Shown here piece by piece: positions 18,924-27,032 of a stretch of DNA of 49,280 nt. The stretch's first letter is position 1; each line of letters begins with the position of its first letter. The notes below the pieces were generated by a model. That model did no database searches and was not told the DNA's origin. It saw only the letters and a list, made by a program, of their open reading frames with translations. The position numbers and the translations under genes are program-made. The DNA comes from an uncultured bacterium (GTDB lineage: Bacteria > Patescibacteriota > Minisyncoccia > Moranbacterales > GWC2-37-73): contig CAILTR010000003.1 of the NCBI GenBank assembly GCA_903837175.1, positions 1 through 49,280 of the forward strand, written 5' to 3'.

Positions 18924-19008
18924 GGAAGCATGGCCGAGTGGTTGAAGGCAACAGTCTTGAAAACTGTCATGGGGAGACCCATCGTGAGTTCGAATCTCAC
19001 TGCTTCCT
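18924..19008 (+). tRNA. tRNA-Ser (anticodon TGA)
   Basis: GGAAGCA/TGCTTCC acceptor, ACAGT-CTTGAAA-ACTGT anticodon arm, long variable arm. Confidence 0.93.
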
Positions 19009-19085
19009 CAAGAAAGATTGAAATGAGTAGCCTTAATGCTGATGGCAAAGTTTGCAGAATAGCTAGTTTGTGTTATTATGGAGAC

Positions 19086-20093
19086 ATGACTGAACAGTTT
19101 AAATCAAAAAGGGCCAAATTTAAAAAAGGCAAACAAAAAGAGTTCATTATAAAATCAAAGGAGGAACTTGGTTTGACATGGCAGGAATTTTCACAAATCG
19201 CGAAAACAAGTTCGAGAAATTTAAATGACTGGAAAAATGAAAAAATTTCGATGTCAGTCGATGCTCTCAGTATTATCTGCAAGAAAAGAAAGTGTGCATT
19301 GCCCAAAGAAATTGAGATATTGAATCCATATTGGTACGCACGCAGTGGAGCTTTACTTGGTGGAAAAGCAACATACGAAAAATATGGAATAATTGGAGGC
19401 GATCAGGAAAAGCGGAAAGAAAAATGGAATCAGTGGTGGGAAAAAGAAGGGAAACTAAAGCCGAATGAAATCTTAAAACCCTTATCTTTCAAAAAACCAC
19501 GTTTTTCAAAAAAGTTAGCCGAATTTGTGGGAATCATGTTGGGTGACGGCGGAATGACGAAAAACCAAGTTAAAGTAACTTTGCATTCTGTTGATGACTT
19601 GGAGTACTCTCGATTTATTGAAAATTTGATGCGGGATTTATTTGATGTAAAACCTGGCAGGACGAAGAGGAACGATTGCAAGGCACTTGATGTAGTATTA
19701 TCAAGAGTTGGTTTGGTGAAATTTTTAGTCGATAAAGTTGGGCTTTGCACTGGTAGCAAAATAAGACAGCAGGTGGATATTCCAGATTGGGTTAAGAATG
19801 ATGATGTATTTAAGCTCACTTGTCTCAGAGGCTTGATTGATACTGATGGCTGTGTAATAATTCATAAATACAAAGTTAATGGAAAGTGTTATTTATATAA
19901 AAAGTTATCGTTTACAAGTCGATCGATTCCATTGCTAAATTCAGCAAAAAGAATATTCGATGAAGTTGACATTAAAAGCAGAATTACAAAAAATAACTTA
20001 GAAATTAGAGTGGAAGCAAAGAGAGATATTGAAAGATATTTTAGTGTGGTAGGAACTCATAATCCGAAGCATTTAATGAGATATGAGAAATAA
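19086..20093 (+). CDS. LAGLIDADG-type homing endonuclease with N-terminal HTH-like segment
   Basis: Two motifs: LAEFVGIMLGDGGM and LRGLIDTDGCV; the longer ORF from 18930 starts inside tRNA-Ser. Confidence 0.82.
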   Translation: MTEQFKSKRAKFKKGKQKEFIIKSKEELGLTWQEFSQIAKTSSRNLNDWKNEKISMSVDALSIICKKRKCALPKEIEILNPYWYARSGALLGGKATYEKYGIIGGDQEKRKEKWNQWWEKEGKLKPNEILKPLSFKKPRFSKKLAEFVGIMLGDGGMTKNQVKVTLHSVDDLEYSRFIENLMRDLFDVKPGRTKRNDCKALDVVLSRVGLVKFLVDKVGLCTGSKIRQQVDIPDWVKNDDVFKLTCLRGLIDTDGCVIIHKYKVNGKCYLYKKLSFTSRSIPLLNSAKRIFDEVDIKSRITKNNLEIRVEAKRDIERYFSVVGTHNPKHLMRYEK

Positions 20094-20103
20094 TATTGAT
20101 ATT

Positions 20104-20192
20104 GGAAAGGTGGCCGAGCTTGGTTGAAGGCACCACACTGCTAACGTGGCAGGGGGTAAAACCCCTCGAGGGTTCAAATCCCTCCCTTTCCT
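20104..20192 (+). tRNA. tRNA-Ser (anticodon GCT)
   Basis: GGAAAGG/CCTTTCC acceptor, anticodon loop CTGCTAA, long variable arm. Confidence 0.92.
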
Positions 20193-20199
20193 CATAAAT

Positions 20200-21746: not shown

Positions 21747-22256
21747 ATGACTGAAGAAATTTTTGAACGAAGTCTTGAACTTAAAGCGTCACAGGCGGGA
21801 AGCATTGCTAGTCTTGTTGGAACTTGGTGGAAAGAGATTTCTAAGCAGGCCCAGTCGCCAGCCAGCCCTGGCAAACTTTATGCGATCGGAAACTATTTGA
21901 TTGAGTTGGCGAAGAATTCCTTGAGCGATGGAAAAGGCGACGGAAAAGTCACGGCTATTTTTGACGGCGAAAAAGTAAAAATTGTGATTGACGATTTAGG
22001 CGACCAGGAGAAGGAAATTAACCTAAATGTGAAAGGCGATTATGGGATGAAAGAATCAATTGAATATTTTGACGTTTTCACAGTTGAATCAAAAGGCCGA
22101 AAGTACGAAAAAAACTTCAGAAACATAGTTGAGGAAACTGACAACAGCGACCTTTATGTTGGCTCAAAACTCACCATTGTTAAATATCATGTCATGCCAG
22201 TTGAGGAAGAGGAACAAACTTATCACTCAAACAGAAATTTTGGCGAGAGGATGTAA
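21747..22256 (+). CDS. Hypothetical protein, possible GHKL (HATPase_c)-like fold
   Basis: IGNYLIELAKNSLSDG (N-box-like), VKIVIDDLGD (G1-like), DYGMKESIEYFDVFTVESKGRKYEKNF. Confidence 0.5.
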   Translation: MTEEIFERSLELKASQAGSIASLVGTWWKEISKQAQSPASPGKLYAIGNYLIELAKNSLSDGKGDGKVTAIFDGEKVKIVIDDLGDQEKEINLNVKGDYGMKESIEYFDVFTVESKGRKYEKNFRNIVEETDNSDLYVGSKLTIVKYHVMPVEEEEQTYHSNRNFGERM

Positions 22257-22406: not shown

Positions 22407-22991
22407 ATGGCTAGCAAAACTTTTCTTAAACAGGCGCAGAAGCACATCCTTAAAAGCGTACCAGCGGTTAATGACTATATTTGTGCTACGCTTTGGGAAT
22501 TGGGTGAGGCAACTTCGCAGTCATTTTTCTCTCCAAAGTATTCCTTCACAAAACCAACACGGTTGTTATTTGGGTTTGAAGTTGGTTTTGAAAATAAGAA
22601 AATCAGCAAAAATACAATCAGAAAAAATCTGGAAAGATTGATCGCACAGGGAATTGTGAAAAAGAAAGGCAGTATTTTCTCACTAAGTAAAGGTGGAATA
22701 AAATTATTTAGTAGTATCGGCCTGCGGAAGAAAATTTTAGCAAAAAAATGGGACAAGAAATACCGTTTGGTGATTTTTGATATTCCGGAAAAAAATAGAG
22801 CAGATCGGAATTGGCTACGGGGTGAATTGCATCTCTTGCAATATGCACAATTACAAAAAAGCGTGTTTATTAGTAAATTTTCTTTAACGGAAGACATCAT
22901 CATTGAAATTCAAAAAAGAAAAATGAGCAAATTTGTGAATTATCTCTTGGTGGACAAAATTTTTGATTATTCTGAAATTAAAAAGAAGTAA
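22407..22991 (+). CDS. PaaX-like transcriptional regulator with Cas2-like C-terminal domain
   Basis: wHTH-like N-terminus; KYRLVIFDIPEKNRADRNWLRGELHLLQYAQLQKSVFIS ferredoxin-like motif. Confidence 0.65.
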   Translation: MASKTFLKQAQKHILKSVPAVNDYICATLWELGEATSQSFFSPKYSFTKPTRLLFGFEVGFENKKISKNTIRKNLERLIAQGIVKKKGSIFSLSKGGIKLFSSIGLRKKILAKKWDKKYRLVIFDIPEKNRADRNWLRGELHLLQYAQLQKSVFISKFSLTEDIIIEIQKRKMSKFVNYLLVDKIFDYSEIKKK

Positions 22992-23002
22992 AATGTTCTT
23001 TC

Positions 23003-23052
23003 AAAAAAGTGTGACAGAAGTTGACGGTCGTCAAGATATGTCACGTTTTTTT
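23003..23052. terminator. GTGTGAC-family hairpin, copy B
   Basis: AAAAAAGTGTGACAgaagTTGACGGTCGTCAAgatatGTCACGTTTTTTT. Confidence 0.75.
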
Positions 23053-23148: not shown

Positions 23149-25671
23149 ATGGAAAAAGGGCCAATTGCGAAAAATTTTGTGTTTAATTCATATCAATTGC
23201 AGCCTGAGAAAAAGCAGGCTGTTTTTGGGTATGCGATTGAATTTGAAAATCGACCAACCTTGGAATTTTTTGAGACAATCATCTTTCCGAAAAAAATATC
23301 ACTTGAAAATATTCCAGCTGAGCTGTTGGAAAATGTTTTGCAAAGCGTGCATTTGATGCTGGGAATTAGCTACTTCAAACTTTATTGTCCGCCGAAAATA
23401 AAATTGTTTAAATTAATTTCCAAGGAGCAGGCAGAATTTTTCAATGTGGTTTATCGAAAAGGTTTGGGGGAATTTTTCTTTCAAAACAAAATTGATCCAC
23501 AAGGCTTGATTGAATTTCCGCATAGCTCGAAATTGAAAATAAAAAGTTACGACTTGAAAAGAAAACAACGAATGTTGGTGGGAATTGGTGGCGGGAAGGA
23601 TTCGATTGTGGGCGGAGAGCTTCTCAGGCAGCACGGCGAAAAAATAGTTGCCTTTTTGGTGGAAACTCAGAAGTCATCTCCTGTCTCAGATTTGGTCATT
23701 GAAAAAATGAATATTCCATCTTTTAGGATTCAGCGAAAATTGGATGAAAAAATATTTTTTAGTCATGATGGGGCATATAATGGGCATATCCCGATTTCGG
23801 CCGTGTTTGCTTTTCTGGGTTACCTGACAGCACTTTTGTATGATTATTCGGCCGTTGTTGTTGCAAATGAACATAGTAGCAATTTTGGGAACATTAATTA
23901 CAAAGGCGAAGAAATTAATCATCAATGGAGTAAATCTTCGGAATTTGAAAAAATGTTTCAAACTTATTCAAAAACATTTTTTTCTGCTGACATTAGATAT
24001 TTTTCAATTTTGCGTCCTTTTTACGAAATCAGAATCGTGGAGATGCTGACCAAGTATAAGAAATATTTTCCTGTTTTTACTAGTTGCAATAGTAGCTATC
24101 TGATTCGCAAGGAACGAGAGAAAAATCTTTGGTGTGGGTATTGCGCTAAATGTGGTTTTGTTTTTACGCTACTTTCAGCTTTTTTAAGCAAAAAAGAATT
24201 GCTGGCAATTTTCAAGAAAAATTTGTATGAAGATCAAAAATTGCTGCCGATGTTTGAGGATATTTTTGGTTTTGGAAAAATGAAACCTTTTAATTGCGTG
24301 GGGACTTTTAATGAATCGCAAGCAGCGTTATATTTGGCACGGAAAAATTTTGGCGAAACTTTTATTTTGAAAAAACTTTTACCAAAAATAAAAAATCCAG
24401 AAAAACTGGTTGAAGAAGTTTTTAAAATCAATCAGGTTGAAACTTTGCCAGAAAATTTCAGATTACTTGGACTGCATAATGTCCTGATTCTTGGTTATGG
24501 CAAAGAAGGAAAGATGACAGAAAAATATCTGAAAAAATATTTTCCAAAATTAAAACTTGGGATTGCTGATGAAAGTTTGGCTGAAAATTATTTGGAAAAT
24601 CAAAAAAAGTATGATTTAGCAATTAAAACACCTGGAATTAAGAAAGAAAAAGTTTTGATTCCCTATGTTACAGCCACGAATTTGTTTTTTGCGCAAAACA
24701 AAAATTTTACAATTGGTGTGACTGGGAGCAAGGGCAAAAGCACCACCGCTTCTTTAATTGCTGTAATTTTAAAAGAGGCTGGCAAAAAAGTTCGGCTGTT
24801 GGGAAATATTGGCACTCCGATGCTGGGAGCGTTGCTAGGCAAGATTGATCCTGAAGAAATTTTTGTGTTGGAACTTTCCAGTTATCAACTGGATGACATT
24901 GCTTATTCGCCAAACATTGCCGTGGCATTGAATTTTTTTCCGGAACACATGGATTATCACGGTGGAGTTGAGAATTATTATCAAGCCAAGAAGAAAATTG
25001 TTTCTTTCCAGAATTCTGAAGATGTTTTTGTTTATAACGCTAAAGATCAAAAACTTAAAAACTGGGCTAGCGCAACAGTGGCGCAAAAAAAGTCTTTTGC
25101 TGGAATTGCATTGGATGGTTTTGAGTCAGCACTTTTAGGCCGACATAATCAAGACAATATTCGTGCGGCAGTGACGGTGGCGAGAGAATTTGGAGTTTCA
25201 GATATTGTAATTAAAAAGGCGCTTAAAAAATTCAGGCCACTTTCACATCGGCTTGAGTTTGTTGGAAAATTTAAGGGCATTGATTTTTTTGACGATGCAA
25301 TTTCAACCACCCCAGAGTCGACTATGATGGCCTTGGAAGCAATTGAAAACGTTGGAACTATTTTTCTGGGCGGGCAAGATCGTGGCTATGATTTTTCCAG
25401 GCTTGAAAAGCAAATCCACAAAAAGGGCATCAAGAACGTGGTGCTTTTCCCAGATAGTGGCAAAAGAATTTTCAAATCAAAAAAGGGACTTAACATTTTG
25501 GAAACAAAAAGCATGAATGAGGCGGTGGCATTTGCTTTTGAAAATACACCAAAAGGCTTAGTCTGCTTGCTTTCAACCGCTTCGCCGAGTTATAGCGTGT
25601 GGAAAAACTTTGAAGAAAAGGGCGAACAGTTTCAATTTTGGGTTAAGAAATTGTCAAAGACTGAAAAATAA
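23149..25671 (+). CDS. Fusion: MurL-like (PP-loop) UDP-MurNAc-L-Ala-L-Glu epimerase + MurD-type Mur ligase (MurD2-like)
   Basis: N-terminal ~430 aa with PP-loop-like GIGGGKDSIVGGELL and WCGYCAKCGFVF; C-terminal Mur ligase with VLILGYGKEG, GVTGSKGKSTTASLIA, LELSSYQLDD, FFPEHMDYHG, SHRLEFVG, DDAISTTPES. Confidence 0.7.
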   Translation: MEKGPIAKNFVFNSYQLQPEKKQAVFGYAIEFENRPTLEFFETIIFPKKISLENIPAELLENVLQSVHLMLGISYFKLYCPPKIKLFKLISKEQAEFFNVVYRKGLGEFFFQNKIDPQGLIEFPHSSKLKIKSYDLKRKQRMLVGIGGGKDSIVGGELLRQHGEKIVAFLVETQKSSPVSDLVIEKMNIPSFRIQRKLDEKIFFSHDGAYNGHIPISAVFAFLGYLTALLYDYSAVVVANEHSSNFGNINYKGEEINHQWSKSSEFEKMFQTYSKTFFSADIRYFSILRPFYEIRIVEMLTKYKKYFPVFTSCNSSYLIRKEREKNLWCGYCAKCGFVFTLLSAFLSKKELLAIFKKNLYEDQKLLPMFEDIFGFGKMKPFNCVGTFNESQAALYLARKNFGETFILKKLLPKIKNPEKLVEEVFKINQVETLPENFRLLGLHNVLILGYGKEGKMTEKYLKKYFPKLKLGIADESLAENYLENQKKYDLAIKTPGIKKEKVLIPYVTATNLFFAQNKNFTIGVTGSKGKSTTASLIAVILKEAGKKVRLLGNIGTPMLGALLGKIDPEEIFVLELSSYQLDDIAYSPNIAVALNFFPEHMDYHGGVENYYQAKKKIVSFQNSEDVFVYNAKDQKLKNWASATVAQKKSFAGIALDGFESALLGRHNQDNIRAAVTVAREFGVSDIVIKKALKKFRPLSHRLEFVGKFKGIDFFDDAISTTPESTMMALEAIENVGTIFLGGQDRGYDFSRLEKQIHKKGIKNVVLFPDSGKRIFKSKKGLNILETKSMNEAVAFAFENTPKGLVCLLSTASPSYSVWKNFEEKGEQFQFWVKKLSKTEK

Positions 25672-25716
25672 AGTGTGACAGAAGTTGGCGACCGTCAAGA
25701 TGTGTCACACTTTTTT
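25671..25716. terminator. GTGTGAC-family hairpin, copy C
   Basis: AAAGTGTGACAgaagTTGGCGACCGTCAAgatgTGTCACACTTTTTT. Confidence 0.75.
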
Positions 25717-25832
25717 GAGAGAGTTTTTTTGTTTTTTTTGTTTGGGTATTCCTTTGCTGGGTTGGTTTGATTTTTGGAGTGTGTTAAACTTGGGTAGGAT
25801 TTCTGTAATAAATTAGTTAAAATTTAAAATAA

Positions 25833-27032
25833 ATGAAAATTCAAAAGGATAAGTTGATTATAATGACGACGGTGTTTATTGATGTGTTGGGGGTGGGGAT
25901 TATTATTCCGGTGCTACCTTTTTATGTGGAAAGCTTTGGAGTTTCTTCTTTTGTGGTGACGTTGCTTTTTTCAGTGTTTGCGCTTTTTTCTTTTGTGAGC
26001 GGACCATTTTTGGGAGCGCTTTCGGATCGGATTGGCAGAAGACCGGTTTTGATTTTGAGCATTGCTAGCACAGCCTTGGGTTGGTTTGTGTTTGCTGGCG
26101 CAAATGCAGTGTGGGTTTTGTTTTTGGGACGCATTATCGACGGAGCGGCAGCTGGAAATTTTCCGATTGCGCAAAGTTATTTATTAGATATTGCCAAAGA
26201 TGAAAAAGAACGCACTTCGAGTTTGGGAGTCATCGGAGCGGTTTTTGGCGTCGGGTTTATTATTGGACCATTCTTGGGTGCGATGCTTAGCACCATTTCT
26301 CCAGCTTTTCCATTTTGGTTTGTGGGAGCCTTAGCTTTGCTGAATATGGTTGGCGCCTTTTTCTTTTTACCAGAAACTCATCACAACCGAACAGTATCCG
26401 AGAAAAAAATTGAAGTTAATCCTTTTTTACCTTTGCTTCGGGCGGCTAAAGATAAAACTCTACGCTTGCGATATTTTGCATTCTTTCTTTATGGAACTGC
26501 TTTTGCCTTGATGAACGGAATCTTTTCGCTTTTCGTAAAAGAACTTTTTGGTTGGTCGGCTTCGGTTATTGGTTATCTTTTTGCTGGGATGGGAATTATT
26601 TTAGTTTTTAATCAAACTATTTTTTTAAAAAAGATTTGGCTTAAATATTTTACGGAGAGACAATTGGAAGTTTGGTTTTTTCCAGTCATGGCGGGAAGCT
26701 TTCTGCTGATGGATTTGAAGAATCCAACCTTGTTTATTTTAGGTATAATTTTAATTACTTTTTCTCAATCAACTTTGCGGGTGGTTCTTTCAAGCGCGAT
26801 TGCTAAGGCTGGTGGAGCCAATCGTCGAGGAGAAGTGATGGGTACCTCAGCTTCGATTATTTCAGCCTCAATGATTGTCGGACCACTCATCGGTGGAGCC
26901 TTGTTTGTGAGAAATTTGCATTGGCCCTTTTTGCTGAGCTCAATTTTACTGCTGGTTGCTTTTTGGCTAGCTAAAAAATGTTGCGAGAGCGAAAAAATCC
27001 TCCAGCCAGAACGGGTGGAAGTGATTGGGTAG
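25833..27032 (+). CDS. MFS transporter (TetA-like/DHA1-type)
   Basis: 12-TM-like hydrophobicity, GALSDRIGRRPVLI motif A, GRIIDGAAAGNFPIAQSYL. Confidence 0.9.
   Translation: MKIQKDKLIIMTTVFIDVLGVGIIIPVLPFYVESFGVSSFVVTLLFSVFALFSFVSGPFLGALSDRIGRRPVLILSIASTALGWFVFAGANAVWVLFLGRIIDGAAAGNFPIAQSYLLDIAKDEKERTSSLGVIGAVFGVGFIIGPFLGAMLSTISPAFPFWFVGALALLNMVGAFFFLPETHHNRTVSEKKIEVNPFLPLLRAAKDKTLRLRYFAFFLYGTAFALMNGIFSLFVKELFGWSASVIGYLFAGMGIILVFNQTIFLKKIWLKYFTERQLEVWFFPVMAGSFLLMDLKNPTLFILGIILITFSQSTLRVVLSSAIAKAGGANRRGEVMGTSASIISASMIVGPLIGGALFVRNLHWPFLLSSILLLVAFWLAKKCCESEKILQPERVEVIG

Follow-up and report, generated by a model that had tools for sequence, protein, structure and literature searches.

Can a single gene supply the D-glutamate (D-Glu) of the bacterial cell wall? 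This question is raised by an 840-amino-acid (aa) open reading frame (ORF) in the window, i.e., the whole stretch of 49,280 nucleotides analyzed here (contig CAILTR010000003.1, assembly GCA_903837175.1), which stems from an uncultured member of the Patescibacteria (Moranbacterales, GWC2-37-73). The canonical enzymes MurI and MurD use free D-Glu. The ORF in the window very probably encodes a bifunctional peptidoglycan-precursor enzyme, which carries MurL and MurD2 in one protein and replaces MurI and, in some lineages, MurD as well. The C-terminal half would add L-Glu to the wall precursor, and the N-terminal half of the same polypeptide would then epimerise it to the D-form through an adenylate. 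Because ligation and epimerisation are joined in one protein, one gene would supply wall D-Glu without free D-Glu. Both reactions, their stereochemistry and the step forming adenosine monophosphate (AMP) are ascribed to the fusion by analogy with characterized homologues, and channelling between the halves is possible. Along the polypeptide, the two domains stand in the opposite order to the two reactions and match the common operon order murL-murD2. The gene and its two halves are located as follows.

23149-25671, + strand: murL-murD2 fusion gene encoding 840 aa, beginning with ATG and free of internal stops (ORF list and profile matches).
23149-24462, + strand: MurL half (NF041275, E 2e-96; AlphaFold model, predicted local distance difference test (pLDDT) 92).
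24478-25668, + strand: ligase half of the MurD2 type (L-Glu), residues 444-840, with an N-terminal Rossmann domain of its own (TIGR01087, 264 bits; tree).

The first-pass annotation had proposed a MurL-MurD fusion in one polypeptide, with a Mur ligase signature in the C-terminal half and a tentative MurL assignment made from motifs. The intact ORF and the profile matches bear this out. In the NCBIfam search both halves match their own families near full length (E about 1e-96 for MurL and about 1e-78 for MurD). Every quoted ligase motif was found, namely TGSKGKST (525-532), LELSSYQL (574-581), FFPEHMD (596-602) and DDAISTTPES (715-724), and GIGGGKDS (145-152) and WCGYCAKC (328-335) were located in the N-terminal half. 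An equivalent two-domain ORF occurs with about 85% identity in a species of the same genus and with 53-62% identity in other Patescibacteria. Due to this recurrence, the fusion is neither a chance product nor an assembly join.

In the N-terminal half, residues 8-436 match positions 8-438 of the 447 positions of the MurL model NF041275 with 323 bits. The MurL assignment now has a profile behind it, and the domain did not fall into an unrelated PP-loop family, the outcome that the annotation had named as speaking against it. Pfam recognized only the Mur ligase domains of the protein and no domain in the N-terminal half. A structure model of this half, built from an alignment of 20 relatives, reached the mean pLDDT given above; the nearest solved folds are the PP-loop ATPases QueC, TtuA and NAD synthetase. 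Two sites in this half stand out.

23581-23604, + strand: PP-loop GIGGGKDS, ATP site, residues 145-152 (G148, G149, K150, D151 and S152 invariant).
24085-24153, + strand: four invariant cysteines, C313, C329, C332 and C335, with roughly the spacing of the QueC four-Cys cluster.

The MurL half shares the PP-loop motif, the predicted fold and the four-Cys pattern with QueC and other PP-loop ATPases (2pg3, 3bl5, TtuA 5mko). However, this likeness is at the level of the fold only (template modelling score of 0.65 normalized by target, 15% identity), the MurL half has additional N- and C-terminal regions and the reaction differs. TtuA was found by sequence in a profile search of the MurL half (E 1e-4). 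Membership in the QueC family was not found by sequence, as hhalign gave a probability of 3% over a 25-column Cys motif alone. The four-Cys cluster may bind a metal. AMP formation has been reported for MurL (PMC8788868, PMC5808125), and the predicted PP-loop fold would agree with this and with the adenylation proposed for the carboxylate of L-Glu.

The C-terminal half matches the MurD model TIGR01087 at residues 475-833, above the cut-off of 212 bits (NCBIfam), and its Rossmann domain starts at about residue 444. In Xanthomonas oryzae MurD2, residues E197, R358, P433 and F435 correspond to D182, K348, A414 and L416 of the Escherichia coli enzyme, and the double change E197D/R358K resulted in a D-Glu ligase (PMC8788868). 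For comparison, E. coli MurD (sequence verified against PDB) was aligned with 92 relatives, which gave the following equivalences.

24943-24945, + strand: E599, equivalent to E. coli D182 and X. oryzae MurD2 E197 (alignment; PMC8788868).
25381-25383, + strand: R745, equivalent to E. coli K348 and X. oryzae MurD2 R358 (alignment; PMC8788868).
25585-25593, + strand: P813-S814-Y815, equivalent to E. coli A414-S415-L416, with P433 and F435 in X. oryzae (alignment; PMC8788868).

The window ligase is of the MurD2 type at all four of the examined L-Glu recognition positions (E599, R745, P813 and Y815). Arginine occurs at the K348 position in 19/19 fused ligases of other genomes and in 33 of 36 MurL-adjacent ligases. 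All 33 canonical Patescibacteria MurDs that were tested, including that on contig C94 of the window's genome, have lysine, and R745 departs from this marker. The change D182E is less diagnostic and was dropped as a sole marker, since glutamate is also present in five of nine MurI-adjacent MurDs. In the ligase tree, the window ligase falls inside a clade comprising 17 fused ligases (support 98), which lies within 51 MurL-linked or MurD2-type rows, the deepest split being weakly supported (78). Residues and tree speak against an ordinary D-Glu MurD for the ligase half and agree with the earlier MurD2 reading; the half did not fall among D-Glu-specific MurDs, a placement that the annotation had named as contrary evidence. 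Ligases of the MurD2 type were also seen in lineages with in-frame TGA codons, i.e., recoded ones (L033, L035, L036 and L039).

The distribution of MurL and MurI was analyzed in 287 Patescibacteria genomes, counting MurI at more than 100 bits. Strong MurL is present in 44 and MurI in 91 genomes. Both occur together in one genome only, that of the window, compared to 14.4 expected (Fisher p 1e-7, with related species being non-independent). Within eight families, some genomes carry MurL and others MurI; the MurL/MurI state therefore changes often. In the single-contig genome G199, a fusion is present, and neither another MurD nor a full MurI was found. Absence of MurI alone is weak evidence and was set aside as such, because strong MurI and strong MurL are both missing from 144 of the 278 genomes in which MurD was matched.

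The trade-off with glutamate racemase that had been predicted from the window is seen across the phylum and also as a gene swap in place. The slot of the fusion gene is delimited by the following features.

22407-22991, + strand: upstream neighbor with a PaaX_M domain, bounding the slot that holds murI in sister species.
25833-27032, + strand: downstream neighbor, a major facilitator superfamily (MFS) transporter, bounding the slot that holds murI in sister species.
23005-23051, no strand assigned: palindrome followed by a T run, terminator-like, upstream of the fusion gene (sequence comparison).
25672-25718, no strand assigned: near-identical palindrome and T run immediately past the stop codon (sequence comparison).

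The gene order in the window is the gene at 21747, PaaX-like, fusion, MFS, CYTH, ComF and PilM. The sister species G288 of the same genus shows the identical order with murI in place of the fusion between the PaaX-like and MFS genes. Two further species of the genus, G290 and G291, also carry murI in this slot, with small rearrangements, and G289 carries the fusion there. In family f138, the order is GAPDH, murI, amidohydrolase and murD in G313, and GAPDH, amidohydrolase and fusion in G335, where no MurI or other MurD was found. From these gene orders, the fusion occupies the murI slot once and the murD slot once. As close relatives carry murI in its slot, the fusion looks like a one-gene replacement for the D-Glu step. 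The palindromes may be terminators. Weaker copies flank murI in G288 and G290, and a role in the exchange of the slot is speculation. A palindrome of this kind is also found downstream of the murD gene for the canonical ligase of contig C94. In G290, the PaaX-like gene and murI are separated by a fusion of a cyclodipeptide synthase with a solute-binding domain (L124:6959-8386). A gene of the amidohydrolase family (Amidohydro_3) is retained next to murD or next to the fusion (L012:6167-7759, L171:1819-3393, L172:4244-5818); speculatively, it could encode a D-amino acid salvage enzyme supplying D-Glu.

Most MurLs of Patescibacteria are encoded by a stand-alone murL adjoining a MurD-type gene, frequently with 4-base overlaps; murL and murD2 are adjacent in the great majority of these split relatives and fused in the window. 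Nine of the 287 genomes contain fused ORFs, one of which is truncated where its contig ends. In a separate scan, the fusion was detected in several named candidate phyla, including Moraniibacteriota, Staskawiczbacteria, Peregrinibacteria and Buchananbacteria. In the MurL and ligase trees, 17-18 fusions form one clade (support 98-99), and those of G026, G171 and G199 are located elsewhere. The fused or split label needs four changes per tree, and the starred branches make a minimum of three necessary in the MurL tree and of two in the ligase tree. Separate fusion events are indicated by the G199 fusion, which groups next to a split pair with a support of 98 in both trees. The trees thus point to several origins from adjacent murL-murD2 pairs, with losses by splitting being indistinguishable from gains. 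In G347 (the genome of L023), a small assembly, two fusion-length ORFs of 831 and 832 aa that contain a MurD-type half were observed (C36:2221-3375 and C5:9523-10536).

The MurD2/MurL pathway itself is already known, from Gammaproteobacteria, Alphaproteobacteria and Actinobacteria (PMC8788868, PMC5808125), and was described as confined to a relatively small number of genera within three groups of bacteria (PMC8788868). New are the fusion, the phylum and the exchange of the module in place. X. oryzae MurD2 and MurL (XOO_1320 and XOO_1319; PMC8788868, PMC5808125) share both families, the gene neighborhood and the L-Glu residues with the window fusion, and MurI is absent in most carriers of the X. 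oryzae type as well as of the patescibacterial type. However, the X. oryzae system consists of two separate proteins instead of one polypeptide. Relatives without the fusion carry the genes of the canonical MurI and MurD in these same slots of the chromosome. Cytoplasmic steps of wall-precursor synthesis are likewise joined in one chain in the MurB/MurC fusion of Verrucomicrobium spinosum (PMC4803751) and in the MurE/MurF and MurC/Ddl fusion models (NCBIfam), but none of these couples a ligase to the epimerase of its product.

Several observations weigh against a bifunctional enzyme that replaces MurI. The MurL score lies below 700 bits, the Xanthomonadales equivalog cut-off of NF041275, and the same applies to all 48 Patescibacteria genomes with any match to this model. 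The confidence of the full-length structure model is low around residues 811-829. The tree-controlled correlation of residues and linkage comprises only 2-3 independent contrasts, is largely phylogenetic and is not significant; it was therefore dropped as independent evidence, and the residue pattern is a family marker rather than independent statistical proof. G363, another fusion genome, has MurI. The window's genome contains MurA, MurC, MurE, MurF and MurG and keeps a canonical MurD (D/K residues), which would be redundant, beside murA on C94; sister genome G289 also keeps one. In addition, MurI is encoded on the 5.9-kb contig C5 (L011, 1372-2193), next to genes for a G2P-like replication protein and for a serine recombinase, and because of this gene the independence of the window species from glutamate racemase is not proven. 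The fusion might accordingly be real but auxiliary here, with a side role or as a recent arrival, while D-Glu comes mainly from MurI or salvage and canonical MurD. We consider this rather unlikely. The retained MurD, whose branch is not accelerated in the ligase tree, would fit it, as would the C5 MurI and, speculatively, release of D-Glu by the amidohydrolase adjoining murD. However, the MurIs of the genus share 65-76% identity among themselves but only about 50% with the C5 MurI. C5 and the 6.0-kb contig C120, which carries a separate unfused murL-murD2 pair (L010, 535-3148) next to a B12-binding radical S-adenosylmethionine gene, have a lower guanine-cytosine content and a tetranucleotide distance of 0.29, compared to a maximum of 0.271 among 16 native chunks; the contamination estimate of the bin is 3.9%. 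We read both contigs as contaminants or mobile DNA, although this reading is not proven. Identity, odd composition and the fusion in the native slot rule out the C5 MurI as the native one of the genus; its gene possibly belongs to a mobile element carrying murI or reflects bin contamination. In G289, MurI was not found, and this species appears to live without glutamate racemase. The first-pass annotation had suggested that the host may not need the racemase, which fits G289 but is left in doubt for the window assembly by the C5 murI. Among the contrary evidence that it had named was a genome carrying murI together with another complete murD; here, the MurD on C94 is native, whereas MurI lies only on the odd contig.

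Far less probable is a reading in which the C-terminal half acts as an ordinary D-Glu MurD and the other half has a different role, an adenylating modification of the stem peptide such as a QueC-like amidation. In favor of this reading, QueC-like enzymes activate carboxylates, the closest solved fold is that of QueC, the assembly contains a MurI and TIGR01087 is named for the D-Glu enzyme. The MurL-specific profile match, the MurD2-type E/R/P/Y residues, the near-exclusion of MurI and the location of the fusion in murI and murD slots argue against it, and the sequence likeness to QueC is limited to the short Cys motif. An assembly or frame artefact joining two neighboring genes has a negligible probability. 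The murL and murD2 ORFs of split relatives overlap, often by 4 bases, and therefore one indel could fuse them, but the fused ORF is conserved across 84% identical DNA in the sister species and in more than 12 further genomes of one clade, which rules out chance or a frame error. For the fusion as a MurL-MurD2 enzyme, a wider scenario is conceivable but on balance doubtful: a self-sufficient one-gene D-Glu module with several fusion origins, which moves among Patescibacteria, is swapped in place for murI or for murI and murD, possibly by recombination between the near-identical flanking terminators, and passes the L-Glu intermediate directly between its halves.

Elsewhere in the window, a 387-aa ORF (18930-20093) overlaps a tRNA-Ser (18924-19009) and ends just ahead of another (20104-20193). 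It contains the LAGLIDADG-like stretch LRGLIDTDG, recognized by eye, and is perhaps a homing endonuclease.

The presence of the MurD2/MurL route in Patescibacteria, in some as a single protein, accounts for how a portion of these reduced bacteria could obtain the D-Glu of their walls with no racemase. The fusion offers a one-protein system for the study of the ATP-dependent epimerase, and owing to the predicted PP-loop fold, the adenylation mechanism proposed for it can be tested directly. Moreover, the sister species with murI or the fusion in the same slot are natural before and after pairs for the swap of an essential metabolic step.
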